A DNA stretch of 36,012 nucleotides. Source: a virus. Under the pieces are notes generated by a model, which saw nothing but the letters and a program-made list of their open reading frames with translations, was not told where the DNA came from and made no database searches. Numbering within the stretch: position 1 is the first letter of the stretch; the number at the start of each line of letters is the position of its first letter. Location: the IMG/VR virus record IMGVR_UViG_3300042316_000297, positions 1-36,012 of that record; one strand, written 5' to 3'. Shown here piece after piece: positions 3,311-33,379 of this stretch. The translations under genes and the position numbers were made by a program.

Positions 3311-4009
3311 ATGGGTGACGAAACTAAAATGGCTCCAGTCAAGACGTCCCTGATGGATGCCTCAGACGTTAAATGGGAGAGGATGATGGCAAAACGCAAT
3401 GAGCCGAAGGTTGACCCAGCTAAAGACCTTGGAGAATTTACCGCCAAGTCAGACGCCCAAGGCAAAGAGGCAAATGTGGCAATGAGGAAGAAGGGCATCG
3501 ACGGTAAAATCATAGTATTTACCGACCCAGTAAAGAGCGAAGCGGGGATGCCCCCAATCCTCAAGGGACAGATACCGAAGCACAGAGATGAGGCAAATGC
3601 TGATAGCGAGGTAATAGATTACGATTGGAAGATCGTTGCATCAGGAGATGCGCGGAACCCCGCATGGACTGTCGGGGAAGGAAAAGTGTATTATCTCAAC
3701 GATGCCACCGAAGCTACGGTATTAAGCACATCTGTAGAGGGGGAGGCTGGGGGGATTTACCTACATATAACCCGAAATCCTGCGTCGAGAGCAGTCACAG
3801 CACAAACCGTGGAGCTATACGTCGAGACTCCGTTCACTGGCGAGTCAGACCAATATTTCCTACTAGGAAACGTGGGGGGTAGCCCCGTCATCATCCAGAG
3901 GCAGTTCACCCCCATCCGTGTCTACGAAGACCTTTTCATAATCAATGGAGAATTTAAACTTGGCAGCATTGCAATGTTAGCCGATAACCTATACACACCA
4001 CCAGCATGA
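3311..4009 (+). CDS. Hypothetical phage structural protein
   Basis: This 232-residue protein has a charged, Lys/Asp/Glu-rich N-terminal third (residues 1-95, probably helical or extended). A beta-rich second half carries YDWKIVASGDARNPAWTVGEGKVYY and ends NGEFKLGSIAMLADNLYTPPA; the latter part resembles a small virion attachment domain. It has no enzyme motif, signal peptide or membrane segment. Its last four bases overlap the start of the next gene (ATGA), which suggests translational coupling with the 364-residue protein. A tail or fibre accessory role is inferred from its neighbours. Confidence 0.45.
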   Translation: MGDETKMAPVKTSLMDASDVKWERMMAKRNEPKVDPAKDLGEFTAKSDAQGKEANVAMRKKGIDGKIIVFTDPVKSEAGMPPILKGQIPKHRDEANADSEVIDYDWKIVASGDARNPAWTVGEGKVYYLNDATEATVLSTSVEGEAGGIYLHITRNPASRAVTAQTVELYVETPFTGESDQYFLLGNVGGSPVIIQRQFTPIRVYEDLFIINGEFKLGSIAMLADNLYTPPA

Positions 4010-5100
4010 GCATTCAAGCAAACATCAACCTACTTCATTTTCCGAGCGGCACTTCAGTCAGCGGAGGGGGGAGACGCACCCCTAATGAGGGCTCATTTGC
4101 TACTAATGCAGTGAGCTTAACAACTGCTTCAGAAGTTGTCCCTAAAGGTGACATCATCACTCCACGGTATGTAGCAATCAAAAATTACGAAGGTGATGAC
4201 GCGCTCATCTCACTTGATGGTGGCAGCACATGGCCCTTCCGCTTGTCTCCAGATAATGATGTCTTGCTTCTCCGTTTAAATCTTGAGGATTACCGCGAGA
4301 TTAGCACTTTCGTTTGTGAAGCAGACACAGCAGGGAGCCTATCTGGAGAACACCTTGAGATCTATGATCATGTTGGCGAGGTTTGGCCTTGGTTCAATAT
4401 CACCGATTTTACATCTGTGAAAGAGATCAGCACAATTACAACGGTTGCAGACGTAGCCGCGTCGCTTGATGCAAAATACTTTGTTATCTCCGATAATGTA
4501 GGAACAGTTGGAGTGTGGTTCGATGTCGATAATAATGGAACAACAATTCCCAGCGGCGCGTCCGCTTGCGCTCGCTCAATCGAAGTCACTACCATTGTCA
4601 CGGGTGACAGTGCAAATACCGTAGCCACTAAGGTTGCAGCAGTGCTAGAGGCAGACTCCAAATTTGTAGCCACCGCAGCGACAAACATCGTGACTGTGAC
4701 AGACGCAAACTATGGCGCAAGGACAAACCTCACCGCAGGCGATTCTGGATTTACTATGGCAGTGACAACGCAGGGAGTATCGGGGATTAACCCAAGCACC
4801 GCTCCTGCCGTCACCACTGAGCGACTCATTCAGGTGGACATCACTGTAGGAAGCACCGCAGTTCAGGTTGCAGTGGCACTCGCCGCAGCGATGGACGCAG
4901 ATGCAGAGTTTATTGCCGCAGTGCCTACCACCTCAACCGCAGTCATTACTGACCAGAACTCAGGCGCGAGGGCAGCGGCTACCGCAGGTGACACAGGCTG
5001 GGCATCTGTTACCTCAGGAAACCAAGGGACAGACTTCTACGACGTTGAAATCAAATCAGTAGGCACTAGCCAAGTGGTGACTGCGGTATGCCCCAACTAA
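4006..5100 (+). CDS. Tail-region protein with tandem beta repeat domains
   Basis: This 364-residue protein contains a duplicated module. One copy spans about residues 155-255 (YFVISDNVGTVGVWFDVDN, then TGDSANTVATKVAAVLEAD, then VTDANYGAR and AGDSGF). A second copy at about 270-345 lacks the first strand block (GSTAVQVAVALAAAMDAD, ITDQNSGAR, AGDTGW). A degenerate fragment (YDHVGEVWPWFNI) precedes them at about residue 120. Repeats of this form (Y-F-x-I-x-D... V-W-F-D-V-D-N followed by a helix and a G-A-R turn) recur in phage virion proteins and I take them as structural or ligand-contacting modules. The gene overlaps the preceding one by 4 nt and precedes the next by 3 nt. Confidence 0.55.
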   Translation: MSIQANINLLHFPSGTSVSGGGRRTPNEGSFATNAVSLTTASEVVPKGDIITPRYVAIKNYEGDDALISLDGGSTWPFRLSPDNDVLLLRLNLEDYREISTFVCEADTAGSLSGEHLEIYDHVGEVWPWFNITDFTSVKEISTITTVADVAASLDAKYFVISDNVGTVGVWFDVDNNGTTIPSGASACARSIEVTTIVTGDSANTVATKVAAVLEADSKFVATAATNIVTVTDANYGARTNLTAGDSGFTMAVTTQGVSGINPSTAPAVTTERLIQVDITVGSTAVQVAVALAAAMDADAEFIAAVPTTSTAVITDQNSGARAAATAGDTGWASVTSGNQGTDFYDVEIKSVGTSQVVTAVCPN

Positions 5101-5103
5101 GAT

Positions 5104-5991
5104 ATGGCTCAAGGAGTTTACACACGGGAAAATCGCGTTCAGTTCGTCAAAGGTTGGCTAACTGGCGGAACAGATCCAGCCGACGGCAGCGTGGAGTGTG
5201 GCGATGGGACGGCATTTCCAATGGAGGTGACGCTCGATCAAGTTGCTGAGATATTTTATCGCGTCAAAGATGCTTGGTTCACAGGAGGCAGTGCATCATG
5301 GAAATACTTAGGATTTGCTCAAACGATAAACGCAGCAACAGATGCACCAGCAAATCGGCGGCTTGATGTAAGCGCGTCAACCTACCAGCAGCGCGGTTAT
5401 TGCAAGCTCGGCGGCGACGATTACAACGGAGCGACATACGACGCAGGCATCGGTAACAATTACAGCGACATTGCAGACAACGAAAACGGAATGTGGCGCG
5501 ACGCGTGGAATGATCCAGATCATGTCGACGCCTTTTCATATGAACAAAATGATCCGAACAGCATCCAAGGAGGAGATCCTGAATGGTGGGGCGATACTGG
5601 TCTAGGAGTCTACGCAACAGTCTTTCGAGGCAAGCGAGTTGCAGTCGTCAAACTCGATCCAGCAGATGGGCTTTACGCGGCAACGAACAAGTTCTATCTG
5701 GAGATTGAGATGTATTGGTTCGATTATGGAGTCGTTCCGTTTGGAGGCAGCACCAACATTTACAACTCTGAGGGCGGATTCGGTGATTTCAGCTCTCGAG
5801 CAGTTTTTATTTCAAACTACATTTTGAGACTTGCAACTGGTGACGCAACTTGTCCTGTCTACTTCGATGCGCTTGGATCAACTGACGAGACTGGAACCGA
5901 TTTCATCCATGAGCCGCAGGTCTGGTGGCCATATGCCAAGGACAATCCAGCCGTGCCTGTTTGGGATACTGATAAGGGCATAAAGTTGTAG
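5104..5991 (+). CDS. Hypothetical structural protein, aromatic-rich
   Basis: This 295-residue protein is rich in Trp, Tyr, Asp and Asn (for example WRDAWNDPDHVDAFSYEQND, EIEMYWFDYGVVPFGG) and predicted mostly beta. It has no signal peptide, membrane segment or recognised catalytic motif. The composition fits a virion surface or receptor-binding protein, and it is the last gene of the contiguous structural block before a 414-nt gap. Codon use looks slightly more GC-rich than the neighbouring gene at 1735. I do not recognise the family, so function is context only. Confidence 0.45.
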   Translation: MAQGVYTRENRVQFVKGWLTGGTDPADGSVECGDGTAFPMEVTLDQVAEIFYRVKDAWFTGGSASWKYLGFAQTINAATDAPANRRLDVSASTYQQRGYCKLGGDDYNGATYDAGIGNNYSDIADNENGMWRDAWNDPDHVDAFSYEQNDPNSIQGGDPEWWGDTGLGVYATVFRGKRVAVVKLDPADGLYAATNKFYLEIEMYWFDYGVVPFGGSTNIYNSEGGFGDFSSRAVFISNYILRLATGDATCPVYFDALGSTDETGTDFIHEPQVWWPYAKDNPAVPVWDTDKGIKL

Positions 5992-6405: not shown

Positions 6406-7017
6406 ATGGAACCCGTACTCGTAAAACCAAAGACCACCCCCGATCAAGTGGCAAAAATGATGAACACTGAATACGGGGAGGACGAACCTACTGGTCTTGA
6501 ACTTGAAGCCTATAAGGTAATCAGGCGTCATGAGGGTTTCAAGGATAAAGTTTATACGGACACTAAGGGAAATAAGACAATTGGAATTGGCACACTTATT
6601 GGGGATGGGTCAGAAGAGGCTTATAAAAAGAGCCCGTATTTCAATAAGACGATTGACGAAGATCAAGCAGCCGAAATCGCTAAAGAAGCTATTAAGGAAA
6701 AAATTGCAACGTCTGAAAAGCTGCTCGGTAAAGATTATCTATATTCCCTATCTCCTGAGCTACAAGCACAGATCGTTAGCAGCGTCTATCGCGGCGGGTT
6801 TAGTGGATCACCAAATGCCCAGCGCCTGTTGAAGGCGGGTAAATTTGAAGAAGCTGCTAAGGAGTATTTAGATAACGAAGAATACCGCCAAGCAAAGGCA
6901 GTAAAGTCAGGCGTCGCTAAACGCATGGAAGAAACTGCCGCAATCATGGCAGCTGAAGCTAAACGCGGGTTTGAGGGCGCTGTTGAGGATCGTTTAAAAC
7001 AACAAACTAAAAGATAA
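6406..7017 (+). CDS. T4-type lysozyme (GH24 endolysin or virion muramidase)
   Basis: This 203-residue protein hydrolyses the beta-1,4 bond between N-acetylmuramic acid and N-acetylglucosamine in peptidoglycan. The GH24 catalytic triad is visible: E43 in RRHEGF, D52 in YTDTKGNKT and T58 before IGIG. The spacings of 9 and 6 residues equal those of T4 lysozyme (E11, D20, T26). The domain occupies about residues 30-180. A roughly 30-residue N-terminal extension has no signal peptide, and the C-terminus is a charged helix. It is longer than T4 lysozyme (164 residues). No holin is evident next to it. Because it lies beside tail genes it may act at lysis or be virion-borne for entry. It has its own promoter at 6341. 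Confidence 0.88.
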   Translation: MEPVLVKPKTTPDQVAKMMNTEYGEDEPTGLELEAYKVIRRHEGFKDKVYTDTKGNKTIGIGTLIGDGSEEAYKKSPYFNKTIDEDQAAEIAKEAIKEKIATSEKLLGKDYLYSLSPELQAQIVSSVYRGGFSGSPNAQRLLKAGKFEEAAKEYLDNEEYRQAKAVKSGVAKRMEETAAIMAAEAKRGFEGAVEDRLKQQTKR

Positions 7018-18373: not shown

Positions 18374-20164
18374 ATGGCAACAAAAATTGTAAAGAAAAGT
18401 AAAATTCTCGAACCGCGAATCGATCCAGTGACTAAACGCATGGACGTAGGTGGATTTCTTATTCCACCCACAAACCTTATAACAGCGCTGTTATATGGGT
18501 TTGCTAACCACACGAACCTGCGGGCGAAGGAGTTTTATTTCTGGCGTTGCTGTGACGAACTTTGGAACAACGCCGACATGCCAGAGCCGTTGATGGTGAG
18601 ACATCCGTGGGCTGAGGAAATGATTTGGGCTGCGTTGAACAACAAGTATCTGGCAATCGGCGGGTCGGCTAGCTCGGGCAAATCCCACACGATGGCCGCA
18701 TGGGGGCTGATTAACTGGTTGTCGGAGCCGCGAGACACTCTGGTGATGATGACCTCCACTTCTTTGCGTGAAGCCCGCCAGCGTATCTGGGGCTCCGTAA
18801 TCGCGTTGTTGACCGTGATACCGTTCGCACCGTGCAAGATTCGGGATTCGATTGGGTCTATCGCTTACGTCGATGAGGGTGGGACTCTTATCGAACGTGC
18901 TGGCTTACGGCTTATCGCAGCAGAGCGGAGTAAGACACGCGAGGCTGTCGGCAAGTTTATCGGTATCAAGCAGAAGCGGGTCATCGTCATCGGCGATGAG
19001 CTTTCCGAAATCTCGGAGGCGATCCTGCACGCTGGTCTTTCCAACCTTTCAAAAAACCCGTGGCTCCAGATGATCGGTATGTCCAACCCAAACAGCCGTT
19101 TCGACGCTTTCGGTATTTGGGCAGAGCCAAAAAGGGGCTGGGATTCGGTGGATACTCAGACGGCTGACAACTGGGAGACAAAGTGGGGTGGCTACTATCT
19201 GCGACTCGACGGCGAGCGAAGTCCCAACATTACGGCTGGCATGGTTCTGTATCCGTGGCTGCCGACCCAAGAGAAGCTCGACGAGGACAGAGCGCTACTC
19301 GGCGTGGAATCTCGCGGCTACTTGCGGATGGTGCGAGCCGTGTTCTTTGACAGCGACGAGACAACGGGCATCTACTCAGAGGTAGACCTCACTCAAAGCG
19401 GCAGTATGGGTAAAGTGGTATGGGCGGGCAAGCCCACAGCCATAGCTGGCGTTGACCCAGCTTTCACCAACGGCGGCGACCGAACGATTCTCTACACGGC
19501 TTTGGTCGGTTACAACAGGGACGGTCACTACGTCTTCGAGTTTGGGGAATCGATCTTGCTCAACGATGACGCGTCCAACAAGGCGATACCGCGAACCTAC
19601 CAGATTGTCCAGCAGATCAAAGACCATTGCGTCAAGCGGAACATCCTGCCCGAAAACGTGGCAGTTGACGCCACTGGCGCGGGCTCTCCGTTCTGCGACG
19701 TGCTTGCAGGCGAGTGGTCGAATCGGTTCATGCGTGTGGGATTTGGTGGCAAAGCATCTGACAAACGCGTTAGTCAGAACTCCAAACTGACGGGTGAAGA
19801 ACTTTACGTGAACCGTGTATCTGAACTGTGGTTCGTGGGTAAGGAATTAATGAGAACCAGACAGTTGTTTGGGATTGACTCAGATCTTGCACAGGAGATT
19901 ACCAACAGGAACTATGATCTGGTCAAGAGTGGCACGCTAAGAGTCCGCATTGAATCCAAGCCAGAGTTCAAATCGCGGTTCGGTCGCTCACCCGACTTAG
20001 CGGATGCCGCCTTCCTTGCGCTTGACTGCGCGCGCCAGCGGCTCGGGCTGGTGGCTATCGATCCACCGAAAGGGGAACAGGATGCGGGATACAGGAGGCA
20101 GCCTGTGACAATTAAAGAGCTGGGCGGCGCTCTCGAAAACGCGATGAGTTGCTTGGCAGATTAA
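18374..20164 (+). CDS. terL: Terminase large subunit
   Basis: This 596-residue packaging motor has an N-terminal ATPase with Walker A GGSASSGKS (96-104) and Walker B VIVIGDE (D208/E209 as acid and catalytic Glu). The C-terminal RNase-H-fold nuclease has D361 (AGVDPAF), D432 (VAVDATGAG) and D544 with D541 (SPDLADAAF). It cuts concatemeric DNA and drives it into the prohead. Length and motif order are normal for TerL. It is transcribed from a promoter with almost no 5' leader. The small-subunit candidate lies divergently upstream, and the downstream region holds a terminator followed by virion genes. No portal gene is adjacent, unlike many phages. Confidence 0.93.
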   Translation: MATKIVKKSKILEPRIDPVTKRMDVGGFLIPPTNLITALLYGFANHTNLRAKEFYFWRCCDELWNNADMPEPLMVRHPWAEEMIWAALNNKYLAIGGSASSGKSHTMAAWGLINWLSEPRDTLVMMTSTSLREARQRIWGSVIALLTVIPFAPCKIRDSIGSIAYVDEGGTLIERAGLRLIAAERSKTREAVGKFIGIKQKRVIVIGDELSEISEAILHAGLSNLSKNPWLQMIGMSNPNSRFDAFGIWAEPKRGWDSVDTQTADNWETKWGGYYLRLDGERSPNITAGMVLYPWLPTQEKLDEDRALLGVESRGYLRMVRAVFFDSDETTGIYSEVDLTQSGSMGKVVWAGKPTAIAGVDPAFTNGGDRTILYTALVGYNRDGHYVFEFGESILLNDDASNKAIPRTYQIVQQIKDHCVKRNILPENVAVDATGAGSPFCDVLAGEWSNRFMRVGFGGKASDKRVSQNSKLTGEELYVNRVSELWFVGKELMRTRQLFGIDSDLAQEITNRNYDLVKSGTLRVRIESKPEFKSRFGRSPDLADAAFLALDCARQRLGLVAIDPPKGEQDAGYRRQPVTIKELGGALENAMSCLAD

Positions 20165-20192: not shown

Positions 20193-20199
20193 TAATAAT

Positions 20200-20230
20200 G
20201 TAGTTCATTAAGCCCAGCTTAATGAACTAC
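20200..20230 (+). repeat. Perfect 13-bp inverted repeat
   Basis: Arms 20200-20212 and 20218-20230 are exact complements, enclosing the loop CCCAG. No T-run follows directly. It could be an RNA hairpin that protects or processes the terL transcript, or a two-fold operator site for a dimeric protein. It lies in the 190-nt gap 20165-20354, which otherwise holds the flanking hairpins, an ACTC triplet repeat near 20283 and a possible promoter. Confidence 0.8.
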
Positions 20231-20251
20231 AACTTCTAAATAGAAGTTTTT
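20231..20251 (+). terminator. Terminator-like hairpin after terL
   Basis: AACTTCTA (20231-20238) and TAGAAGTT (20241-20248) form an AT-rich stem with a very tight turn (in practice a 4-6 nt loop). It runs straight into five T residues (20247-20251). Together with the stronger hairpin immediately upstream it probably ends most terL transcripts. Confidence 0.55.
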
Positions 20252-20354: not shown

Positions 20355-21290
20355 ATGGCGGAAGAATTAACAGCAGCACAAAAAGAAATTAATAGAAAAC
20401 TAGCTGAGTCTGGACGCCCCCCACGTTTTCCTGAGTCTTCAGGTGACCAAACAACACCAAAAACTAGTGCGGGTTTAAAAGAGCTTGGCGCACAGTTATT
20501 GCGCGATAGCACAAAGGAAGTGGAGGCTAATAAAAAACTTAATGAAACAGTTAACGGACTTGGGGCTTCAACGGCCATTGGTGGCCCACTTTCGCCAGCG
20601 ATTCTTGATTCGGGATCTGCGCCTACACCCGATAAAACTTTTTTTGATAATCTAGACTCTACCTTTTCAGGTATCCTTGGAGGACCCAATATCCCGTCGA
20701 AATACGGTGGGGCGAAGCTTGAGGAAGCTGCCGATAAACTTCCGAAACAGTCTGAATATGTTCCTCTTTTTAACACAGAACCCGATAAAGAACCCAATAA
20801 AGAATTTGGAACGCCGCTGAGTTCGCGGTCAACTTCATCTCTAAGTGGCAGTGTAGGTAAACTTGGTGAAAAGCGCACTCTCGGAACCCGATCAGGTGCC
20901 ATGCGCACTGAAGCCCGTCGCCTGCGTAGACAAGGTTATCGTAAAGCAGCTGAGGATATGGCGATGGGCGCTTCTATGCAGAGGCTCGATGAACCAAGTA
21001 TCCTGACTCAGGAACAAAGAGGCAGGAGGGAAGTTTTGTCTAAACAAGCTGGCGTAGCTGAAAAAGACGCTATGGCGATGCAGGGCGAACAGGCTCAATA
21101 CATGCGGGATCTTCTTAAGGCACGACAAAAACAACTAAATGAAGGGGTCGTGCCGCCATATCCAGTAGGACAAACTACTGCCCCCAATGAAAATAGTTTA
21201 TTTGGAACGCCAATGGGTTCGCGGTCAACTTCATCTCTAAGTGGTAGCGTAGGCAAATTTGGAGAGAAACGCACTTTTGGCACAACTTGA
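20355..21290 (+). CDS. Virion-type protein with internal duplication
   Basis: This 311-residue hydrophilic protein is largely disordered in its first half (Lys/Glu/Pro/Ser-rich, no aromatic core). An Arg/Ala/Gln-rich helical part follows (MRTEARRLRRQGYRKAAEDM, then KQAGVAEKDAMAMQGEQAQY). A 28-residue motif occurs twice: FGTPLSSRSTSSLSGSVGK with GEKRTLGT before the helical part, and FGTPMGSRSTSSLSGSVGK with GEKRTFGT at the C-terminus. It is the first of three genes ending with the giant protein; by order it could be the equivalent of a small T7-type internal virion protein. There is no enzyme motif or membrane segment. Function is inferred from context. Confidence 0.5.
   Translation: MAEELTAAQKEINRKLAESGRPPRFPESSGDQTTPKTSAGLKELGAQLLRDSTKEVEANKKLNETVNGLGASTAIGGPLSPAILDSGSAPTPDKTFFDNLDSTFSGILGGPNIPSKYGGAKLEEAADKLPKQSEYVPLFNTEPDKEPNKEFGTPLSSRSTSSLSGSVGKLGEKRTLGTRSGAMRTEARRLRRQGYRKAAEDMAMGASMQRLDEPSILTQEQRGRREVLSKQAGVAEKDAMAMQGEQAQYMRDLLKARQKQLNEGVVPPYPVGQTTAPNENSLFGTPMGSRSTSSLSGSVGKFGEKRTFGTT
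20805..20887 (+). repeat. Direct repeat copy 1 (83 nt)
   Basis: This copy matches 21201-21283 closely, with a long identical core reading through the RSTSSLSGSVGK codons. Differences are mostly third-position, so the two coding motifs are kept under selection or recently duplicated. Confidence 0.85.
21201..21283 (+). repeat. Direct repeat copy 2 (83 nt)
   Basis: This is the second copy of the motif at 20805-20887 and forms the C-terminus of the same protein. Recombination between copies would delete 396 nt (132 codons) in frame, removing the helical middle. Confidence 0.85.
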
Positions 21291-21306: not shown

Positions 21307-22341
21307 ATGGCAGAATTTTCTTACGAGTCTGATATTGCGCCGATGCGCGGGACTTATTTTTCTAATGAAAACCTTAATGATAGGGAGCGCAAACAATTGC
21401 AGACAGACTACTTGCAAAAAATAGCGCCTTATCAAGACATTACTAATAAGACGCTCGACCGAATGTTCGACGTTCAAAATCAGGAAATTTCTTTTCGCCG
21501 CGCCAATCTTGCTTTTGAAGATGAAAAACTCAAACTTCAAGAGGCACGCGATGCGGCTACTAAATATCCTGAAATTACCAAGCAGTTGGAGGATGCTATG
21601 CTTGGTAAAAAATCTGTGGATCAACGCCTGCTTGTAGCGGATATCGAGATGAAGAACCCGTCTTTCTTCGCAACCCCTAACGGGAACGCACTGCTTTCAG
21701 CCGTCAAATCAAAAATATCTGCTTCGGCAACAACTGAAGCCGTCGAACAAGCTAAATCGAATCAGTTATGGAATATGGCTGCGCAACTGGGCATGCCAGA
21801 TATTGCAGAACAGGTAGCGTCTGGCGGAATAAATCCTGACGCCGCGCTTAGTGAAATTACCAAACGTAAAAAAGAAGAAGACATGCTTGAAAAGCAACAG
21901 AAAATTAATACACAACTAAATGAAGACATACTTAAATTTCAAGCGGGTTATATTGCTGACGATAAGAAATTGTATCGCAATGTAAAACTAGTCGGAGGTA
22001 AAGAAGTTAATTATTCTGACTCTGAAGCTGCTGGGGGAAGTGGATCTGCACAAGTATTGCCTGAAAACACTAAGTTTACAGAAACATATAGAGCTAATCT
22101 AATTGACGGAGTATCTAGATATACTGACAAAACTGTCGAAGAGTTGAATAAAGAATATGGGGACGGCACTCGCGATAAAGAGCTTTATGATCTGTTCGGC
22201 AAACGTGTTAGGGATAACGAGACACAATTGTTTAGGTCTATTGGTCGTCTTGGATATGGCGCAGCACCAGCTGCAACGAAAATAGATTTAACAGAAGATG
22301 ACAGAATAAAAGGTAGTTTAAATATTAAGCCACCACAATAA
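21307..22341 (+). CDS. Helical virion-type protein, possible internal (ejected) protein
   Basis: This 344-residue protein is rich in Lys, Glu, Gln and Ala and predicted mainly alpha-helical with coiled-coil stretches (RRANLAFEDEKLKLQEARDA, then KKEEDMLEKQQKINTQLNED). It lacks a signal peptide, membrane segment or catalytic motif. A Gly/Ser linker (AAGGSGSAQ) precedes a helical C-terminal third. It is 16 nt after the preceding gene and 43 nt before the giant gene. Size, helicity and position before a giant protein are compatible with an inner-core protein, but no sequence match is recognised. Confidence 0.5.
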   Translation: MAEFSYESDIAPMRGTYFSNENLNDRERKQLQTDYLQKIAPYQDITNKTLDRMFDVQNQEISFRRANLAFEDEKLKLQEARDAATKYPEITKQLEDAMLGKKSVDQRLLVADIEMKNPSFFATPNGNALLSAVKSKISASATTEAVEQAKSNQLWNMAAQLGMPDIAEQVASGGINPDAALSEITKRKKEEDMLEKQQKINTQLNEDILKFQAGYIADDKKLYRNVKLVGGKEVNYSDSEAAGGSGSAQVLPENTKFTETYRANLIDGVSRYTDKTVEELNKEYGDGTRDKELYDLFGKRVRDNETQLFRSIGRLGYGAAPAATKIDLTEDDRIKGSLNIKPPQ

Positions 22342-22384: not shown

Positions 22385-25300
22385 ATGACTGAGCTTACCC
22401 CAATCGACATTTGGTCCACCGAAAATAACATTACAGATCCAATTGAACAGAGGGTAGGTTATAAAAATTATTTAATTGGTGAGTATCTTGCAAATGATAA
22501 ACTTGACGAAGAGACAAATGAACTCATCAGAAATAACGTCGCGCTCTCACTAAAACAAGTTGGAGCTTCCGATGAAGTAATTAAAACACAACTCGGGGTT
22601 AAAGAGGTTTCTTTCGAAGATCAATTAGCTTCGGTATATGCATATACTGATCCAGCTTCAGAAGAAGGGAGCATTCTTCGCGAATATAACACAGCTAAGA
22701 ATATGCTGTTTGATGGGCGGTTTAATGAGACCGACCAACAAGCATATGAAACTCGCATGCCTATTCTTGAAGAACAGGTAAAGACAATAGTAAATACTAA
22801 TTTCAATAAAGCACAACTCGCGCGGGTCGCAGATGGCTCTGTCCCATTTGTCAAAATTAAACGGGAGAACGGAGATTACACATTTGTTGGTGGTGATCTC
22901 GCTTCGAACCTCACACCAGTTGAAGCTTACAAGCAAAGCTTGCGTGCGGGCACTATCTCACCAGATGATGCGTTAGCGATTAAACAGTCTTATGAAATTC
23001 CTGAAGGCGAAACAGTTCCATACTTTAAAGCTAAAAATTATTATGATGCTATAGCTGCAGCAAGTGCAGCCTCTAAAGAAGACAAAGACGTATCAAAATG
23101 GATTGGCCAACTTGCGGAGAATATCGGCGAAGAAGATCAAGAAAAAGGCGGACTACGCAAAACAGCCGAACTACTTCTTGAAGAAGCTGGAGAACAGTTA
23201 AAATTTTCTTTAGAAAATTTTGGCAAATTTGATAGTAAGAAATTAAAAGAAGAAGTAAAAACTCGATATGAATTTGCGCGGAATCTATATTCTGGTGAAG
23301 CTAAATCACGCACACCTAAACTTACGAATGATCAGCTATATAGTTTAATCATAGATAAAATAGAAAAGAAAATACCCGATTCAAAATTTATTTCTGATGA
23401 TGATAAACGTGCGGCTATCGAATATTATGCTGGTAGTAGTGCTGCGCAAAACGGGTTATTAAAGTTCCGCACGGGAGATGAAGCTGGTGAGAACATCCAT
23501 TATTTCGGATATGGAACTCCAGTTATTCATCGCGAAGCTTTAACAAATAAAGAAGCATTTAAGTCGATGCTCGCAGAGAATAAATTATCTGATGAACAAA
23601 AAGAGCAAATGACTAAGGACCGCGATATTATGGTCCAATCAATGTTCAACGACTATGATAAAGTATTTAAAGATACTTATCTTGCAGATGATTGGAACCG
23701 CGCCCTCCAAGAGGGTTATTCCAAAGGTAAAAAAGATGGAGAGATTCTTGATGACTTTTTACAGACAGCTGACTATAGTGGTGTAAGTAATAGAATACGC
23801 GCAATTGGCTGGTCTGTGATAGACTCTATTGCAGAGATAGGTGGTGCAGTAGGGGTAGCCTTTAAATCTGACGCTGCCCGCGAAGTTCTTCTTACAGTTC
23901 AAAGAGAGCGTAACTCTCGGCGTCGCCTTGCCAATATGTTTGGCGATGATTTTGGTATTGCTATGACACTCGGTGAAATGGCTGCCCCCGTTATATTTGA
24001 TGTCGGAACCACAGCTTTATTAACATCTACTACAGGAGTCGGTGGAGCTGCTTATGCGGGTTCTAAGCTCACAGCTCGCGGAGTTGTTCTTGGGATCACT
24101 CGAGGTGCTCTTACTACTGGAGCAAAAGAAACAGCAGAAGCTGCGGCTACACGACTTGTTGCTAACGGGCTTGTCAAAGGTGCTACTAAAGAAGCGGCAA
24201 TAGAATCTGCCGAAACAGCACTTAAAGCTTATGCGAAAACCACAGCAAACAAATATGTAATTCAATCTGCCATATTTATTCCAGCAGCTACAAGATCTGG
24301 TGGCAATACCTACGCGGCGGTATATTCTGCTTTAGATAATTCACAAGAAGGAAAATTCCTAACTAAAGAGGAGAAACATTCGCGTGCACTTGCTGCGGGT
24401 ATTTTTGCGGGTGCTGTTACTGGTGGTATTACACTTGGATTTGGCGCAATAGGGCGCGGGGGGCTTGAAGATTTCATTCTTGGAGGAGCTACTCCACGAC
24501 AACTGAAAGCTGTTCTCACGAAAATAAAGGGTAGAGAGTTTGGTGCGGGAGTTGACTTTGATAAGCTGGTTACAACTTATGCAAAAAATGGGCTTAAGTC
24601 CATGTGGAAAAATTCAGCGCCAGCTGGTGTCGTTAAGAGTTTTACTGATGAGGCTTTAGAAGAAGCAACTGATGAACTGTTTAACGGGTATATTCAAAGT
24701 GCAGCTACTGGTCAAGATGTCCCTATCTTAGATAGACTACAACAGGCAGCAATGGCTGGCTTTTATGGTGGTGTATTCGGTGGCGGTATGGGTGTATTCC
24801 AGCGGACTGCTGGACGACTGGCGCGCGGCGGTGCCATTGAAGCAGAAAGTCGGGACGCTGCATGGAATAAAGTAACGAACGATATCGCGTCCAGACTGAA
24901 AAATGCTGGCAGCCCTCTTGCGGCGGAAGTTATCCTTAACAGACTTAAAAACCCCCTACAAAAAGCAACCACTGCTGCTGCCGTTACGACCACTACTACT
25001 GCTACTAAACCCGCTACTGCTACGGCAGATGCCGCTACAGGCGAAATAAAAGATATCGATTTACCTGAAACTCCCGTAAAAAGATTAGGGGCTCCAGCAG
25101 AAACTACTGAACCAGCTGCAACTACTGAACCAGCTGCAACTACTACGCCAGCTGCAATTGCTGCACCAGCTGCAATTACTGCGCCGACGGCTGTAGAACC
25201 ACCATCTGTAGCTAATAAATTTACAGCCCCTCCTTTTACTTTCGGAGAAAATTCTGCGTCGCCTCTTCAGATTCCTTTCGAGTCTACTTATGCCAGTAAA

Positions 25301-28300
25301 GATAATGGACCACTAGAAACCCGATCTGGTGAAACTGGTATTATAAATAAATCTGGTAGACTGGTCACTTTGTTTGATGTTGGCGGGATAAAAATCCCGT
25401 TCTATTTGTCATCAGGCAGAGGCGGTAAAAAAGGTGTTCCAGCTGGCAAATGGTATCCCTTCTTTGGTTTTGGAGAAGATGGTTGGATGAACAAGGGATC
25501 TACTGCAGCTATCAATGATTACTACGGTTCTCCGACGTTGCGTGCGATTGCGACACATCTCGATAATACTGTAGGAGATATCAGAGGTAATAAAGACATA
25601 CCAAAAACAGGTGAGAAAGGGCCTGCTATTCCATTTATTAATCAGGATCTTAATCCCGTTGAAAACAATACAGATACAACTATTAGTGATTTTGATAAAG
25701 AGGTCGCTAGAATAAAAGATATCTTAGCTACATTAGAAGGGCAAGAAGCCCCGAGCATTGGGCCAGATGTTGAATCTGACTCTCTAGAGAGTGCCCAAGC
25801 GGATCTAGAAAATGTGTCTCAAAACGAAATTCAAGAAGCTATTGAAGAAGTTCTTTCAGAGAGCCAACCTGAAGCCCCCGCACTAGTGTTTACATATACT
25901 ACTCCTGAAGTTGACTCAAGTATTATTGAAGATTCTACAGATGAAGAACTCAAAGAGCTTGAGATAACACCGAGCGAAATAGAAGCATTATATGCAGCGG
26001 GAGATCAACAAGGATTAACAAAAGAACAGATTGATAAGAATTTCGCAGCACTTGCTCCGCCAAAACCAGAATTACCCGAATGGGCAATGGCGCGGACACG
26101 CGAAATCTACGAAGCCAGAACAAAAGCTGCGCAAGAGGCAGCTGCAACAGAAGCAGCAGAAGCGGCAAAGGCAGCTGATATTGCCGCAAAAGAAGTAGCC
26201 GCAGCAGCAAGAGCTACAAAAGCCGCTGAACGTAAAGCGAACGATGCGGCGAAGAATGTAACTCAACAGGGGGACATTAAAGCAAAGAAAGCTGCGGAAA
26301 AAATAGCTATGGCAGAAGCCAAAGCTGCTGAGAAAGCAGCCGCAGCAGAAGCTAAAGCTGTCGAGAAAGCATCTGCGGCAGAAGCAAAAGCTGCTGCAAA
26401 GAAAGCCGCTTTAGAAACAAAAGCAAACGAGAAGGCAGCGGCTGATCCACTTAAAGGAAGCACAATCAAAGCATTTAAAAAAGCTATTGCTTCGGTTAGC
26501 GAAGTAATAGTAGGACTGGGATTCCCCATCAGGCTAACCAAAGGCAGCTCTTTCGGAATGCCTAAAGGATTCCAAAATGTTGAAAATCAATTTGATATTT
26601 CAAACAACATTTCCAAAGCTATCTACGAAAAGTATCCTGTCCTCAGTGTTGTAGAGGTAGCTAAATACTCAGGCATCCTGAAACCTGAACCCCTTAAAAC
26701 TCCACAGGCAAATGAATTTGATCCAGTCAGAGGTGAGTTCGTTGAAAGAAATAAGCAGACGTATTACGTCGCCACTGACGGTGCGGCAATAATCGGTCTA
26801 TTTGATAACAACCCACGGAGCATGATCCAGCTGCTGCGAGACGAGATTCCCGTAATAGTTCCAAAATCATTTCCACAATTTAAGTTTAACAAAGCAATTG
26901 TAATTGATCCTGCTACTCGAGAGGTTATCGATGTGCTGGGACCAACTGCGGCCGACCCGATGGTGTTGGAATCAAAAGTAGATAGGAAGAACCGAAAATC
27001 AACACCACTAGTATCTCAGACTGCCGACGACTCGTTTGAACTTCTTGAAGGACTCAAGCCGATGTCCAGCGCACCGATGGAGGTTCACCGCGACCTAACC
27101 AACATTAAGGATATTGAACCACTTGACAATCCCCAAACTACTTTTGCAGAAGCGTCGGCTAAAATAGACGACTTAATTGGCAAGATATACGTATCTCTTA
27201 CGGGAGGTAGTATCGCAGGTGATTATAGTAAAAACGAGTCGGGTTACAAAAACCGAGCTGCTAAGGATACGGCAGCGGCAATGGCGACTATGATGGGTAT
27301 TGACCGCGCTAATCTACAAGGCGAATTTCTCGAGCGGGCTAAAGCAGAAGCAGCAATGGAACTTGTTCCTGAGTTTAATAAGGCGCTTGTATTTGGAGAG
27401 ATCTTCCAGAGCCTTCAGAGATTGGGCGCAATAGAGATGTCCGACGGACGCTACTCGATTAAAGCAGGTGCAGAGCAAGAGGCTCGCAGCATCTTGCTTG
27501 ATCGTATCAAAGTCCCAGCTGATTTTACCAATGCTAAAACCGATCTACCAATCGTAGAGGAAACAAATCGTAAGGCAGCATTCATCTATACGTTCGGTTT
27601 TAAGAAAGGTCAGAGCAAACCAATCCTAAAAGAAGGGGAGAAGAACAAAACGAAGAAACTCACTTCTGATTGGGATAGCAAAGTTCTCGATTCTTATATC
27701 GGCGGAATTATCAACGACGCAATCGCCCGACCAGATACAGACGGTCTATTCCCCAACATCAAGGTTATCGCGAAACGAGTGGGCACACGCGCAAGAGAGC
27801 GTGCCAAATATGCTATTGATGAGAAAATTAGCGATGATGTCTTCTCGTTAAACATGGTTTCAACTTTCGTTGGCGACGAAAAAGGATCTATCGAGACTGT
27901 TGATGTGAATGAGTTCGGTGATTTGTATAACTCAAGCTCGTCTACCATCCCTTACATCTTCACTAAAGAAGCGGCTGAACAAGCAGCCTTAGAGGTGAAC
28001 AGAATTTTCTTGAAGCCCGCTTACAAGTTGATTAATGAGGACATAGATGTGCAGAAAGCTCTGCGTAGGCTTGCTAAAAACACTGTCCATAAGGCTAGCC
28101 CGTCTCTTGCTGATGCACTGAAACCCCAAGATTTGTTTAAAGCAGTGGCTGAGTGGGCTGTCTCGAAGAGCCGTTCTCAAAGCGACTCGTATAGATTCCG
28201 TCGTCAATTTCTTGACCACTTCAAAGCTACGAACGAAACTACGGCTACGATCAGCCAAGCTTTCGAAGCTATCGGCGCTTACAATTACAATTTCAAAAAA

Positions 28301-31300
28301 GTCGTTAATAAGAAACAACGTGACGCACTCATCAAACAAGGCTTCTCAGAATTAGAAACTACACTAATCACACAGAATTCCGTTCCGACATTACTAGCTG
28401 CGAAACTCGGTATTACAGAAGCTGAAGCGAGAAGTCTTCACAAGAATCTGGCGAAGACGATTCATCGATTCGACGCGCCATCGTTCATCAACTCGAAGCA
28501 CCGCGCTTTCTTCCGTGCGAAGAACGAGAAGGAAATCAAACGCCTGAATCTTGAATCGGGTAACCCGAACTCTGTAGTCGCTGCGATGAATCAGATCATG
28601 AAGAGCAGCAAGAACAAACAGCACCGCGCTGTTGCACAGTTCCTGCTCAAGAATCCTGATCTTATTACCAAGACCAAGTTCTCCATCGCCAACATCGACA
28701 ACAATAAAGCTGGTCAGTTCTTCGTCGGTAACGACGGTATCGGTAACGTCGTCATAAATATGACAGGCTTCTATGGATCTGGTGTCGAGTCCGTATTGCT
28801 CCATGAGTATCTACACGCGGCTACCGTTGAGTTAACCACCAAGCCTGAGTCCGAACTCTCGGATTCACAACGCATGGCTAAGAAGCGCCTCAATGGTTTG
28901 CTTGATATCTCACGTCGCAACTACGAGAAGCAACTCGCTAACGGCGGTCGTAAAAACCTACTGTTCGAGTCAGGCACTCAGAACATCGAAGAGTTCATCG
29001 CTACGTTCTTCACCTCTACTGACTTCCAGAAAACGCTCAAGGTAACTAGAGATGCTGAGGGAAGCAGGAACTTCTTCACTCGTATACTAGACGCGATCAA
29101 AGATCTTTTCGGAGTTCGACTTAACAAAGCATTCGACTCTGCGTTCGCAGACCTTATCGACTTGACCACAATTGGCAACATCGACTCGGCATCTACTTCG
29201 ATTGAAGCCCGTATGGATTATGCGATGAGCGTTGCAATCAACGAAGGACGTAAGTTCTCCCCGATTCCAAAATCAATTAGAGATGCAGCGAGACCCGCTG
29301 CTGAGATCGATCTTGCGCAGTTCTCCAGCTTGGAGCCACTTGTTGACGGAGAACTCGGAACTGCTCAACAGCAGCGGATGATCGACTATCTGATCGATCA
29401 GGCGGTGCGCGGGCTAATCCCAGCCGACGTAGCATTGTCAGTATTTAATACTCAACAAGAAGCCGATGACAGCGGAGTATTCGACGGACGACCTAACGCA
29501 GCCATTGTTGCCACAGTAGTCCGTAACGCAGATGGCACAGAGCAGTCCGCGATATTCATTAACAGAGCCAACATGCGCAACGCATTGCTATCGCGCAGCT
29601 CTGTGATTGAAGATGCTGAGATGGCGAAGGCGATACTCGAAACCATTATCAACGAAGAGCTTACTCACGTAGCTGAGTTCAACGCGATTCCGACTGAGAC
29701 GATCAATGCCATGATCGACGAAACTCTCGATCAAGAGTTTGATGGTATCATTGACGATTACACATCTGATCCTGAACTACGCGCTTCTTTGAAGGAAGGT
29801 ATTCGTGGACCAGATGCAGCGGAAGTCAAACGCCAGATGATTGGTGAGCATCTTCGCATGTATCACCAGCGTGTTGCTCGCGGGTTTACCACAGAGGAGG
29901 ACATTGCTTTCTTTGAAGGTAGCCCAAGCCTGATGAAGATTGTGTTGCGTTACCTTCGCGGAGTATTCAGACGGACATACGCACGTTACAATCTCAACAA
30001 GAACAATCCAGAACTCGCAGCGGTTATCCACCTCATGTCGAATGAGCTGCGTTACCTGCAAGCTGGTTCATATGCAGTTGACGGTCATAATGAGTTTGAC
30101 CCTCGCACGCCACTGGCTGGCTTTGAAGTTCTTCGCCGCCAGTTCGCTGCAACTAGCGTAGATATCACCGATCAAACGACAGATGAAGAAGTCGCTGCTC
30201 GCTTCCAGAGCGTGCTCGACTCTGTTGATCTGCCAGTTTCACAGTATGTAAAAGGAAACTACAAAGGGTTCTCTGGCATAGTAAGCTGGTTCAAGGGCGA
30301 ACTTGATCCGCGTGTAACTCGGGTGAAGAAGCAGCAGATATTTTTTGAGAATGCTGTAGAAGCTATTGCTAAGAATTACATGACGAAGCTAGCTAAGCTG
30401 ATCGATGAAACGGATGGCGGAGTTGATGAAAATGATCTTTCGGATGCAGCTGGAACCACTGAGATGATTACGGTTGATAAAGATACGATGCTTAAATTGT
30501 CACAGCCGTATCTGTCAGCTTTGAAAGAGCGCAAGAGAAGAGTCGCAGCTGGAACACTCGATCCAAAATATATTTCTAAAGAAGCACAATCTGAGATGCG
30601 TAAGAGAATGTTTAAGGACCAACTCGAAGTTTACCGCGACTCTCTCCGTGATAATATTCGGAGTAAGCAAAGCGCGGCGTTAGCGCGTATACGTGAAAAC
30701 TATCCAGAGCTGGCAGCTACTATAGCTGAGTTCCGTTCAGTTATCGATAGCACTTCCAGAAAGCTCAAGGATACTTATAGTCTTTCAGAGAGTATGCAGA
30801 TCAAGTTTGATTCGAACATGGGCATCTACTTGACACGCGCATACAAAGCGTTCAACGAAGAAGGTTACATAGACAAGGTTCTCAGATCAAGTGACGAAGA
30901 ATTTGTTTTGCTACGCGAGAGAGTCACACCATATTTCGAGAAGCGTTATGCGGAGAAACTTGCGGGGATTCTTAAAAAGCAATCTAAGATAGACGCCGCT
31001 AAAGATCCCGCTAAGAAGGAGCTTACAAAGGAAGAAGCTTTGCAGAAGGCCGACAATCAAATAAAAGATGATCCAACTTTAATTGCGAACTTCATGGCTC
31101 AATTCCTGAGATCTTATGAAACGGATTATCGTAAACGTAGACCACTAGAGGGTGGTGTAACCAAGTCACTGATCGATAACTTAAAGAACAAAAGTAATTT
31201 AGATTGGGCAGTTCGCGAATTGCTTGGAGAATACAAAGGCTCAGATCAAGCCATCAACAACATGTTCCGAACATATGCTGTTGTAACATCAATGGTCGCG

Positions 31301-33379
31301 CGCCAGTCATTCTACAATAACTTGATTTCTATTGGGTCAATGGTAGAGCAAACCAATTTGAACGGCAAAAAAGAAATGGTCGGTTTCCTCATGACACGGG
31401 ATGAGTTAAACAAGAAGATGCGTAGCGACCCTGCCTTTATTGCAAGTGATTACGTTAACCTAAGAACTGGGCGCTCCTTTATTGGAGACGCCGATGATGC
31501 CATACCCAAAGATCTTGCTGGTCAGTATGATCCTACATATCACTACTACGGACCTAAAGAATTAGTTGACGGTATGCGTAACGCTTATGCTCCTCAGTTT
31601 GACGACGAGAACAAAACGTCTTCGAGAAGAATTTTAGATAATGCACAGTGGCTTGCTTCAACACTCACTGGTCTATCGCTCGGAGCGAAAACATTATTCT
31701 CTGTTGGATTCTACTTACGAAACATTGTTAGCAACATGGTATTCTTCGGCACATCGCAAGGTTTTGTTAACGTGTTTGCTATGGGTAAAGAGCTGGGTTT
31801 GGTCAAAGATGCTTTTTGGGACCCAAACAATATCGACGAGACCCGCGCAGATCTTACCGCTTTCGGCATTATAAACAACGAGATGACGACAGGTCTTCTG
31901 AAGGACATCCTCAGTGGAAAAGTTTCTGTCGGTAAGTTGGAGAACGATATGAAAGATATCGCAGACAAGCTGAAGGCTATTAAAGATGCGGGATCTAAAG
32001 CAGTAGACCCACTCATGTCTAGACTTCGAGCGCTATCTGGCGCTGTTGATGGCTTCTACAAAGTAGCTTATTTCAAGCATGAACTAGCTACTCTTGAAAG
32101 AGCGAGACAAGCAGACATTGATGCTGGAAACGATAGTTACTATAGCCGCCTAAGTGATTACGAGATGAAGCGCGAAGCCGCCCGCAAGGTTCTTGCGACT
32201 GCGCAGAGTTACTCAGAAGCACCACCCATCGTAAAGGATTTTGTTAGAGGGCCTGGAGTTTTGGTATCTCCGTTCTTGAGATTCAAAGTTGAAGTGCCGC
32301 GAATCGTATGGAACACATACAAAGAGGGTGTTGCTGAGATGAAGTCTGGAAACTCAGTGATGGTTGCACGCGGTGTAAAACGAATGACTGGTATGACTGC
32401 AATGCTAACGCTTGTTTCAGGCGGCCTTGCTGCGATATTCAGAGGGATCTTTGATATCGGAGATGAAGAAGAGGAAGTGCGCCGCAGCGCCCTCCCGTCT
32501 TACATGCGGGATAACTCGATTATTTACTTCACATGGGGTGGTAAATTGCGATCTGTGGATCTTACATTTGTCAACCCATACGCATTAGGAGTTGACCCGA
32601 TTATGCGCGGTGTCGAGAAGGCGTCACGCGGCGATATATCGGGCGCTGCTATGGCAACACTAGGTGCTTTTTGGGGTACGTATGGAGATCTGCAAATTCT
32701 TGCTGGGTCTATTGGGGATGCATATTACAATAGAGATTCTAAAACAGGTCAAAAAATATTCAATGAGACCGACGGTTTAGGAATTCTTGGGAAAGGAATT
32801 ATGTATGTTCTCGACAAAGCCTACAACCCACGTGTGATTGAGAAATCTTGGGACGCCTATAAGGCATCACAAGCGCCTGTAGTTGACGAACAGTATTCAG
32901 CAAGTTCGATATTAGTAGGTGAGTTTGCGCCCGTTAGAACTTTTCCAATAGATACGTCAGAGCAGTATACAAAGCTGGTCGCCAACGCGAGCGCAGATCT
33001 GAGAGCCAATAGAGCAAGTTTGAATATTCTCAGAAGTAAGCGCCCGATATCCGATGAAGAAATTCGAGAGTTAGCTCGCGAACAAATAGCCAATAAGATT
33101 GCGATTAGTCAGGGTGTATTCAAGACAACCAGAGGACTCGTCACTAGCAAGCATGGAGACTTTGATATCAACGAAGCCGCAGGCATTCTGAAGGAGAAGG
33201 GTTACGGTCCGAGAAATATCAATCTGATATTCCACGGATATATCGAACGACCCGCCATCAATAAAGAGCTTGCCGAAAGGGTTATTAATAATATTGGCGA
33301 GGAGGGCTACCGTAGATTGCAGATCTTAAACGATGAGTTTAAGAAGGTGCCGCAGTTTATTAAGTTCGACACTAAATAA
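22385..33379 (+). CDS. Giant polyvalent virion protein (3,664 residues) with zincin domain
   Basis: Order seen: a charged helical N-terminus (1-460). Hydrophobic Gly/Ala segments follow at about 474-492, 534-570, 668-693 and 790-805. A Thr/Pro/Ala repeat tract is at about 902-940, and a compact domain with KWYPFFGFGEDGW at about 980-1074. A TolA-like Ala/Lys/Glu coiled coil lies at about 1236-1359. A metallopeptidase-type motif HEYLH (2140-2144) has a downstream acid in IEEFIATFF (E2202/E2203), and a degenerate second motif EELTH is at 2424-2428. The C-terminal region has hydrophobic segments at about 3098-3134 and 3337-3359. The E-A-L-E-E-A-T-D-E-L stretch before the last Gly-rich N-terminal segment and the HExxH...EEFIA layout are typical of phage large polyvalent proteins, which are thought to be injected with the DNA. 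The A/C-rich leader ends at ATG 22385. Confidence 0.7.
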   Translation: MTELTPIDIWSTENNITDPIEQRVGYKNYLIGEYLANDKLDEETNELIRNNVALSLKQVGASDEVIKTQLGVKEVSFEDQLASVYAYTDPASEEGSILREYNTAKNMLFDGRFNETDQQAYETRMPILEEQVKTIVNTNFNKAQLARVADGSVPFVKIKRENGDYTFVGGDLASNLTPVEAYKQSLRAGTISPDDALAIKQSYEIPEGETVPYFKAKNYYDAIAAASAASKEDKDVSKWIGQLAENIGEEDQEKGGLRKTAELLLEEAGEQLKFSLENFGKFDSKKLKEEVKTRYEFARNLYSGEAKSRTPKLTNDQLYSLIIDKIEKKIPDSKFISDDDKRAAIEYYAGSSAAQNGLLKFRTGDEAGENIHYFGYGTPVIHREALTNKEAFKSMLAENKLSDEQKEQMTKDRDIMVQSMFNDYDKVFKDTYLADDWNRALQEGYSKGKKDGEILDDFLQTADYSGVSNRIRAIGWSVIDSIAEIGGAVGVAFKSDAAREVLLTVQRERNSRRRLANMFGDDFGIAMTLGEMAAPVIFDVGTTALLTSTTGVGGAAYAGSKLTARGVVLGITRGALTTGAKETAEAAATRLVANGLVKGATKEAAIESAETALKAYAKTTANKYVIQSAIFIPAATRSGGNTYAAVYSALDNSQEGKFLTKEEKHSRALAAGIFAGAVTGGITLGFGAIGRGGLEDFILGGATPRQLKAVLTKIKGREFGAGVDFDKLVTTYAKNGLKSMWKNSAPAGVVKSFTDEALEEATDELFNGYIQSAATGQDVPILDRLQQAAMAGFYGGVFGGGMGVFQRTAGRLARGGAIEAESRDAAWNKVTNDIASRLKNAGSPLAAEVILNRLKNPLQKATTAAAVTTTTTATKPATATADAATGEIKDIDLPETPVKRLGAPAETTEPAATTEPAATTTPAAIAAPAAITAPTAVEPPSVANKFTAPPFTFGENSASPLQIPFESTYASKDNGPLETRSGETGIINKSGRLVTLFDVGGIKIPFYLSSGRGGKKGVPAGKWYPFFGFGEDGWMNKGSTAAINDYYGSPTLRAIATHLDNTVGDIRGNKDIPKTGEKGPAIPFINQDLNPVENNTDTTISDFDKEVARIKDILATLEGQEAPSIGPDVESDSLESAQADLENVSQNEIQEAIEEVLSESQPEAPALVFTYTTPEVDSSIIEDSTDEELKELEITPSEIEALYAAGDQQGLTKEQIDKNFAALAPPKPELPEWAMARTREIYEARTKAAQEAAATEAAEAAKAADIAAKEVAAAARATKAAERKANDAAKNVTQQGDIKAKKAAEKIAMAEAKAAEKAAAAEAKAVEKASAAEAKAAAKKAALETKANEKAAADPLKGSTIKAFKKAIASVSEVIVGLGFPIRLTKGSSFGMPKGFQNVENQFDISNNISKAIYEKYPVLSVVEVAKYSGILKPEPLKTPQANEFDPVRGEFVERNKQTYYVATDGAAIIGLFDNNPRSMIQLLRDEIPVIVPKSFPQFKFNKAIVIDPATREVIDVLGPTAADPMVLESKVDRKNRKSTPLVSQTADDSFELLEGLKPMSSAPMEVHRDLTNIKDIEPLDNPQTTFAEASAKIDDLIGKIYVSLTGGSIAGDYSKNESGYKNRAAKDTAAAMATMMGIDRANLQGEFLERAKAEAAMELVPEFNKALVFGEIFQSLQRLGAIEMSDGRYSIKAGAEQEARSILLDRIKVPADFTNAKTDLPIVEETNRKAAFIYTFGFKKGQSKPILKEGEKNKTKKLTSDWDSKVLDSYIGGIINDAIARPDTDGLFPNIKVIAKRVGTRARERAKYAIDEKISDDVFSLNMVSTFVGDEKGSIETVDVNEFGDLYNSSSSTIPYIFTKEAAEQAALEVNRIFLKPAYKLINEDIDVQKALRRLAKNTVHKASPSLADALKPQDLFKAVAEWAVSKSRSQSDSYRFRRQFLDHFKATNETTATISQAFEAIGAYNYNFKKVVNKKQRDALIKQGFSELETTLITQNSVPTLLAAKLGITEAEARSLHKNLAKTIHRFDAPSFINSKHRAFFRAKNEKEIKRLNLESGNPNSVVAAMNQIMKSSKNKQHRAVAQFLLKNPDLITKTKFSIANIDNNKAGQFFVGNDGIGNVVINMTGFYGSGVESVLLHEYLHAATVELTTKPESELSDSQRMAKKRLNGLLDISRRNYEKQLANGGRKNLLFESGTQNIEEFIATFFTSTDFQKTLKVTRDAEGSRNFFTRILDAIKDLFGVRLNKAFDSAFADLIDLTTIGNIDSASTSIEARMDYAMSVAINEGRKFSPIPKSIRDAARPAAEIDLAQFSSLEPLVDGELGTAQQQRMIDYLIDQAVRGLIPADVALSVFNTQQEADDSGVFDGRPNAAIVATVVRNADGTEQSAIFINRANMRNALLSRSSVIEDAEMAKAILETIINEELTHVAEFNAIPTETINAMIDETLDQEFDGIIDDYTSDPELRASLKEGIRGPDAAEVKRQMIGEHLRMYHQRVARGFTTEEDIAFFEGSPSLMKIVLRYLRGVFRRTYARYNLNKNNPELAAVIHLMSNELRYLQAGSYAVDGHNEFDPRTPLAGFEVLRRQFAATSVDITDQTTDEEVAARFQSVLDSVDLPVSQYVKGNYKGFSGIVSWFKGELDPRVTRVKKQQIFFENAVEAIAKNYMTKLAKLIDETDGGVDENDLSDAAGTTEMITVDKDTMLKLSQPYLSALKERKRRVAAGTLDPKYISKEAQSEMRKRMFKDQLEVYRDSLRDNIRSKQSAALARIRENYPELAATIAEFRSVIDSTSRKLKDTYSLSESMQIKFDSNMGIYLTRAYKAFNEEGYIDKVLRSSDEEFVLLRERVTPYFEKRYAEKLAGILKKQSKIDAAKDPAKKELTKEEALQKADNQIKDDPTLIANFMAQFLRSYETDYRKRRPLEGGVTKSLIDNLKNKSNLDWAVRELLGEYKGSDQAINNMFRTYAVVTSMVARQSFYNNLISIGSMVEQTNLNGKKEMVGFLMTRDELNKKMRSDPAFIASDYVNLRTGRSFIGDADDAIPKDLAGQYDPTYHYYGPKELVDGMRNAYAPQFDDENKTSSRRILDNAQWLASTLTGLSLGAKTLFSVGFYLRNIVSNMVFFGTSQGFVNVFAMGKELGLVKDAFWDPNNIDETRADLTAFGIINNEMTTGLLKDILSGKVSVGKLENDMKDIADKLKAIKDAGSKAVDPLMSRLRALSGAVDGFYKVAYFKHELATLERARQADIDAGNDSYYSRLSDYEMKREAARKVLATAQSYSEAPPIVKDFVRGPGVLVSPFLRFKVEVPRIVWNTYKEGVAEMKSGNSVMVARGVKRMTGMTAMLTLVSGGLAAIFRGIFDIGDEEEEVRRSALPSYMRDNSIIYFTWGGKLRSVDLTFVNPYALGVDPIMRGVEKASRGDISGAAMATLGAFWGTYGDLQILAGSIGDAYYNRDSKTGQKIFNETDGLGILGKGIMYVLDKAYNPRVIEKSWDAYKASQAPVVDEQYSASSILVGEFAPVRTFPIDTSEQYTKLVANASADLRANRASLNILRSKRPISDEEIRELAREQIANKIAISQGVFKTTRGLVTSKHGDFDINEAAGILKEKGYGPRNINLIFHGYIERPAINKELAERVINNIGEEGYRRLQILNDEFKKVPQFIKFDTK

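Follow-up and report, generated by a model that had tools for sequence, protein, structure and literature searches.

A single gene fills almost a third of the uncultured phage fragment analyzed here (the window, the whole stretch of 36,012 nucleotides). The 3,664-amino-acid protein that it encodes is a member of a large family, for the most part not yet described, whose fixed frame of modules carries exchangeable cargo domains. The best reading of this protein (the giant, below) is an N4-like ejected polyvalent protein that has no RNA polymerase (RNAP). With the fixed frame as its scaffold, this giant polyvalent protein is probably housed inside the virion and ejected into the host when infection begins.

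The gene lies at 22385..33379 on the + strand (coordinates include the stop), and this frame has an ATG start, 3,664 codons and no internal stops. Contig L002 is 100% identical to the giant over residues 1-3166, and contigs L003 and L004 each carry an unbroken 3,629-amino-acid homologue, so the frame is neither an assembly artefact nor due to chance; the single huge protein that the initial annotation had drawn here is confirmed by the intact frame and by these independent contigs. The L003 homologue is 77% identical to the giant, and comparison of the two genes by NG86 gave dN 0.15 and dS 1.04, with dN low across all of the modules; a dN/dS of about 0.14 shows that purifying selection on the gene is strong. 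The window lacks an exact terminal repeat of 12-200 bases, and no stable hairpin was found directly 3' of the giant gene.

Relatives were sought through the window's terminase large subunit (TerL). A scan of IMG/VR contigs gave 422 related stretches, 80 of which were kept, and most kept contigs of adequate length have a giant frame similar to that of the window close downstream of the terminase. The same TerL had no matches among 50,697 phage records, so the phage group appears, within that collection, to be uncultured; the TerL matches in GTDB MAGs are scattered over bins that are unrelated to one another (Blastopirellula, Opitutae, Altibacter), and for this reason no host is assigned. Twenty complete giants, whose frames span 3,354-5,402 residues when read from stop to stop, were retrieved and with those of the window and L003 make 22 full-length proteins. 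Iterative profiles built from residues 1-860 (module A), 2005-2345 (B), 2400-2592 (B2) and 2605-3664 (C) found all four modules in the same order in all 22, with the module B profile over-extended in two of them, L107 and L109. The frame thus consists of A with its three hydrophobic segments, a zincin B (HExxH...E), a degenerate zincin B2 (EExxH) and a helical C. The polyvalent-type architecture that had been proposed for the giant is supported, and the zincin hub domain of phage polyvalent proteins is present in it.

The lengths between modules vary greatly. The A-B spacing is 676-1,707 residues among the twenty fetched giants, and the B2-C spacing runs from about 17 residues in several giants to as many as 2,086; in the window this B2-C cargo slot (30161..30208, +) is 16 amino acids long, against up to about 2,086 in relatives. 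L104 has an insert separating its modules B and B2 that recurs, with 55% identity, in the B2-C slot of L106. Domain matches in the relatives' cargo, several of which score below Pfam's gathering score, include GNAT in L109 and DUF7178 in L102, L105, L106 and L108, as well as GNAT, methyltransferase, DUF7178 and ADP-ribosyltransferase (ART-PolyVal) matches found together in L107 (G017). The last four lie within a single 1,862-residue slot insert, into which the zincin profile runs, a hint that it may contain a further zincin copy. In L105, the slot insert matches Pfam Phage_L5_gp82 (mycobacteriophage L5 gene 82) at about residues 899-1011. A Pfam search of the whole window giant returned nothing, even at E 1. 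Effector-type domains such as the giant was initially thought to carry are seen in the slots of its relatives, whereas its own recognizable enzyme-type domains are the tandem zincins only.

Module A (residues 1-860; 22385..24964, +) is present in 22/22 giants. Its Gly/Ala-rich hydrophobic segments, noted initially, are real and are kept in the 22-member alignment: 527-564 (23963..24076) and 787-810 (24743..24814), both identified by family-average hydropathy, and 667-695 (24383..24469), identified by hydropathy, all on the + strand. They are moderate in the window giant (peak Kyte-Doolittle about 1.6-1.7), so membrane insertion is a guess. The module A family profile has no detectable match to the N4 N-terminal domain (NTD; P=0.011). 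The N-terminal part of PHROG_2206 matches relative G001 at 2.4e-9 and the window genome at 6.8e-4, and Ala/Gly composition may explain these matches.

Between modules A and B lies a mosaic of segments, all on the + strand. A Thr/Pro/Ala linker is present at about residues 865-940 (24977..25204), as had been described, and is followed by a compact domain that we call KWYPFFG (about 964-1115; 25274..25729), whose previously noted motif KWYPFFGFGEDGW is found at residue 1022. This domain is movable: it sits in the A-B region of the window giant and, as a homologue with E=3.5e-15, in the B2-C slot of L105. Similar stretches occur in phi4:1 gp38 (E 1e-4) and, weakly, in phi14:2 gp078 (E 2e-3), both of which are annotated as virion proteins from MS/MS according to their deposited records. 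Next comes an Ala/Lys/Glu repeat (about 1244-1352; 26114..26440); the repeat behind the "TolA-like coiled coil" of the initial annotation is real, but its resemblance to TolA is compositional only. A PHROG "tail protein" match to the middle region falls on this repeat and was likewise treated as compositional. Beyond it, the AlphaFold2 (AF2) model has an alpha/beta domain at 1372-1535 (26498..26989), with similar stretches in L099, L100, L101, L103, L105 and L115, and a helical region at 1540-2005 (27002..28399) for which profile comparison was negative; no family was recognized for either. The model of residues 1372-2571 has pLDDT 70.5 and pTM 0.36, and Foldseek found no match to it in the PDB (best E 0.18). 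Most of 2450-3100, which had appeared to match nothing, is now placed, since 2402-2592 form a second zincin-like domain and 2609-3662 a module with homologues.

The zincin of module B (2007-2336; 28403..29392, +) is related to proteins of known phages. Aligned by hhalign, module B matches the C1 subdomain of six N4-like polymerases with P=1.4e-9 and phiKMV gp37 with P=1.7e-8, and a reversed C1 alignment used as a decoy gave P 0.37. In VIA, the zincin part of the AF2 model aligns to residues 2124-2359 of N4 gp50 (Z 7.2 over 180 residues, with an rmsd of 4.5) and to the zincin domain of lethal factor (Z 8.1 over 153 residues). The tool itself rates Z values of this size as middling, and the profile result therefore carries more weight than the fold match. 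By these profile comparisons module B is a zincin homologous to the N4 virion RNA polymerase C1 and to phiKMV gp37. The metallopeptidase motif picked out initially proves to be part of a genuine zincin fold, with profile and fold support: the zinc-binding motif is HEYLH at 2140-2144 (28802..28816, +), and in the 22-sequence alignment E2141, H2144 and E2203 are each invariant while H2140 is present in 17 sequences and replaced by Glu in the other five. EExxH in place of HExxH, with the downstream Glu kept, was seen in module B of L025, L032/L038, L082-L085, L092 and L097; it is the form that predominates in module B2. The latter (2402-2592; 29588..30160, +) is a degenerate second zincin found in 22/22 giants, with EExxH at 2424-2428, and is a weaker relative of module B (hhalign, P=5e-4). 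The position at which the zincin starts (2124 in N4, 2007 here) was considered as evidence and rejected, because in relatives the start falls anywhere between about 1530 and 2590.

Could the region ahead of the zincin be a highly diverged single-subunit RNAP of the N4 type, packaged in the virion and starting early transcription? The giant is similar in size to the N4-type virion RNA polymerase, the middle region directly precedes the zincin, as RNAP does in N4, and residues 1876-2263 match PHROG_2206 (virion RNA polymerase) with E=3.6e-5. The zincin accounts for this match, however; in phiKMV gp37, too, the part that PHROG_2206 matches is confined to the zincin. Moreover, comparison of the middle region (about 630 amino acids) with N4-like RNAP domains gave P values of 0.55-0.9, which do not improve on those of reversed decoys, and PF00940 matches none of 16 family records, whereas the positive controls (T7, phiKMV and N4-like phages) do match. 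The structure search, which barely tested the middle region, listed no phage polymerase fold, and a close-family HMM gave no match to N4 and other virion RNAPs. Motifs A, B and C of an RNAP picked by eye (LTGGSIAGDY, NRKAAFIYTFGF and VHKASPSL, respectively) were discarded, having no profile signal and a negative PF00940 result. We consider a polymerase here highly improbable. The likeness to N4 gp50 that had been suggested thus holds for the C1 zincin, which is demonstrably shared, but not for the RNAP domain, which was not found. The suggested likeness to T7 gp16 was not detected by profile comparison (best P=0.0098 for module C, 0.28 with a deeper profile), and a lytic transglycosylase domain of the T7 gp16 type had no match in Pfam or PHROGs.

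Module C (2609-3662; 30209..33370, +), again present in 22/22 giants, is long and helical in a model made from a 48-sequence alignment (pLDDT 76, pTM 0.67). C-terminal hydrophobic segments had been described in the plural; one, 3333-3361 (32381..32467, +, by hydropathy), is conserved. Foldseek found no match for the module in the PDB (best E 0.098), and the VIA list contains common helical arrangements only, with Z under 7 and N4 not among the chains listed. In BFVD its predicted fold has 45 matches with E below 0.001, and many of the proteins matched bear the name large polyvalent protein associated domain, LPD38 among them; the LPD38 HMM (PF18857) matched none of 21 records and none of the controls either. 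Comparison with N4 C2, which is also helical and also follows the zincin, gave P 0.007-0.04. Profile comparison did find homologues in three phages: phi18:3 gp123 (P=3.6e-30), whose structural annotation rests on MS/MS proteomics according to the deposited note, Y3 WPJ21803 (P=1.9e-45) and HTVC027P gp85 (P=1e-20), deposited as a "putative structural protein". The proposed virion association is thereby upheld, through deposited MS/MS annotations, for homologues of module C and of the KWYPFFG domain, and packaging of the giant itself in the virion is supported through such homologues.

The giant gene closes a conserved cassette with the order TerL (18374..20164; PHROG terminase E=1e-14), 311-amino-acid family (20355..21290), 344-amino-acid family (21307..22341) and giant, all on the + strand. 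As the giant adjoins TerL in this cassette, it counts as encoded among late or virion genes. The 311-amino-acid protein is of low complexity, with relatives of about 190-700 amino acids (52 sequences, iterative HMM), and the family of the 344-amino-acid protein directly before the giant spans 300-374 amino acids (50 sequences). These two upstream genes had been called helical and virion-type; what stands is that they are conserved in the cassette, which resembles other three-gene ejection cassettes. A 15-pair inverted repeat, TGTAGTTCATTAAGC-TGG-GCTTAATGAACTACA, lies at 20199-20231 in the gap between the TerL and 311-amino-acid genes and may be a terminator or have a regulatory function. The 311-amino-acid protein contains two copies of the peptide SRSTSSLSGSVGK.GEKRT (window 20823 and 21219), which is absent elsewhere in the window; the L004 relative ends without the C-terminal copy.

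We infer ejection, membrane insertion and proteolysis of the giant by analogy, and envision the following course of events. The 311- and 344-amino-acid proteins and the giant would be synthesized late and packed in the capsid, and on adsorption all three would exit through the tail ahead of the DNA, the two smaller proteins perhaps helping to form the envelope conduit and the giant travelling in a loosely folded state, like a string of beads. If N4 gp50 and T7 gp16 are a guide, the hydrophobic segments of module A, and perhaps of module C, would anchor it at the inner membrane, and its middle and C-terminal parts would reach the cytoplasm. The zincin might then either cut the giant, freeing cargo, or act on a host protein, both of which roles Iyer et al. 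have proposed for polyvalent proteins (PMC5512222), and the EExxH copy, B2, may be its non-canonical or structural partner. The lineage-specific cargo of the middle region and the B2-C slot, which is shown at the domain level (KWYPFFG, the alpha/beta domain and the helical region here, and GNAT, methyltransferase, ADP-ribosyltransferase and DUF7178 in relatives), would be delivered to the cytoplasm.

Two other fates of the protein must be weighed. It might stay in the particle without ejection, as a structural or tape-like component of the capsid interior or the tail; homologues annotated merely as "structural protein" and the long, helical module C would fit such a role, but the conserved zincin ligands, the exchangeable enzyme-type cargo of relatives and the homology of module B to the ejected N4 gp50 all favor delivery, and we judge retention unlikely. 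Alternatively, the giant might be a precursor that its own zincin cuts before packaging, some of the fragments then being packaged. Autoproteolysis before packaging has been predicted for P1 DdrB (PMC5512222), and tandem zincins and flexible linkers would suit it, but the N4 virion RNAP, which has the same zincin, is packaged unprocessed (PMC5512222), and EExxH in module B of some relatives means that canonical catalysis is not universal. Such a precursor seems quite improbable, and we retain the ejected polyvalent protein as the best explanation.

Among known systems, gp50 of Escherichia phage N4 (Schitoviridae) is, like the giant, a single huge chain encoded after smaller ejection-protein genes, with a hydrophobic N-terminal part and a homologous C1 zincin followed by a long helical region. 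N4 ejects gp50, gp51 and gp52; gp51 and gp52 build the conduit, and gp50 has a membrane-associated N-terminal domain and a C1-C2 domain that inhibits the polymerase (PMC12633501). Unlike gp50, the giant has no RNAP domain that we found, has a second, degenerate zincin and a slot between B2 and C, and shows no similarity of its modules A and C to the N4 NTD and C2 that the tools used could detect. Cellulophaga phage phi18:3 gp123 shares the C-terminal module and has a hydrophobic Gly/Ala stretch in its N-terminal part, as does the giant, but it is 1,935 amino acids long and no module A, B or B2 was detected in it. The homologous C-terminal module is likewise present, with no zincin detected, in Pelagibacter phage HTVC027P gp85 (1,342 amino acids) and Pseudoalteromonas phage Y3 WPJ21803 (1,027 amino acids); in the latter it is joined to an ADP-ribosyltransferase-like domain (an ART-PolyVal match below Pfam's cut-off), and Y3, unlike the window phage, has a separate 3,421-amino-acid polyvalent gene upstream. 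Pseudomonas phage phiKMV gp37, an internal virion protein in the T7 gp16 position (PDB sequence 9sfn), has the homologous zincin region but is 1,337 amino acids long, with no further shared module detected. The polyvalent proteins that Iyer et al. described in 2017 from phages and conjugative elements (PMC5512222) resemble the giant in being multidomain with a zincin hub domain, and its relatives in combining unrelated enzymes in one chain; the giant differs from them in its fixed four-module frame with defined slots, its uncultured group and its few recognizable cargo domains.

Both the N4 C1 domain and phage polyvalent proteins that carry a zincin were known before. As far as our tools could check, what is new is a frame of four fixed modules that includes two regions for cargo, the occurrence of this frame across a phage group whose terminase has no deposited relatives, the presence of a second zincin in degenerate form, and the connection of module C and KWYPFFG with virion proteins of isolated phages. 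These results define an alignable frame for giant ejected phage proteins and separate it from cargo, so that what the shared modules do can be addressed in the isolated phages phi18:3, N4 and phiKMV, and the family offers a natural RNAP-less comparison for any function of the N4 C-terminal domain beyond autoinhibition. A more tentative idea, which we find possible though doubtful, is that N4-type giants and this family share one ancestral ejection frame, made up of an N-terminal membrane module, a slot for cargo, a zincin and a helical C-terminal module, in which the N4 RNAP is one slot cargo; if so, uncultured phages fill the slot that holds RNAP in N4 with other host-modifying enzymes.

Portal and capsid genes are expected somewhere in a phage genome. 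No portal, capsid or tail gene was identified in the window, so a short-tailed morphology is not established, and the virion genes of this phage group look highly diverged. Four adjacent + strand genes at 1735-5991 (523, 232, 364 and 295 amino acids) have no Pfam or PHROG match, and a separate lysozyme gene is located at 6406-7017.
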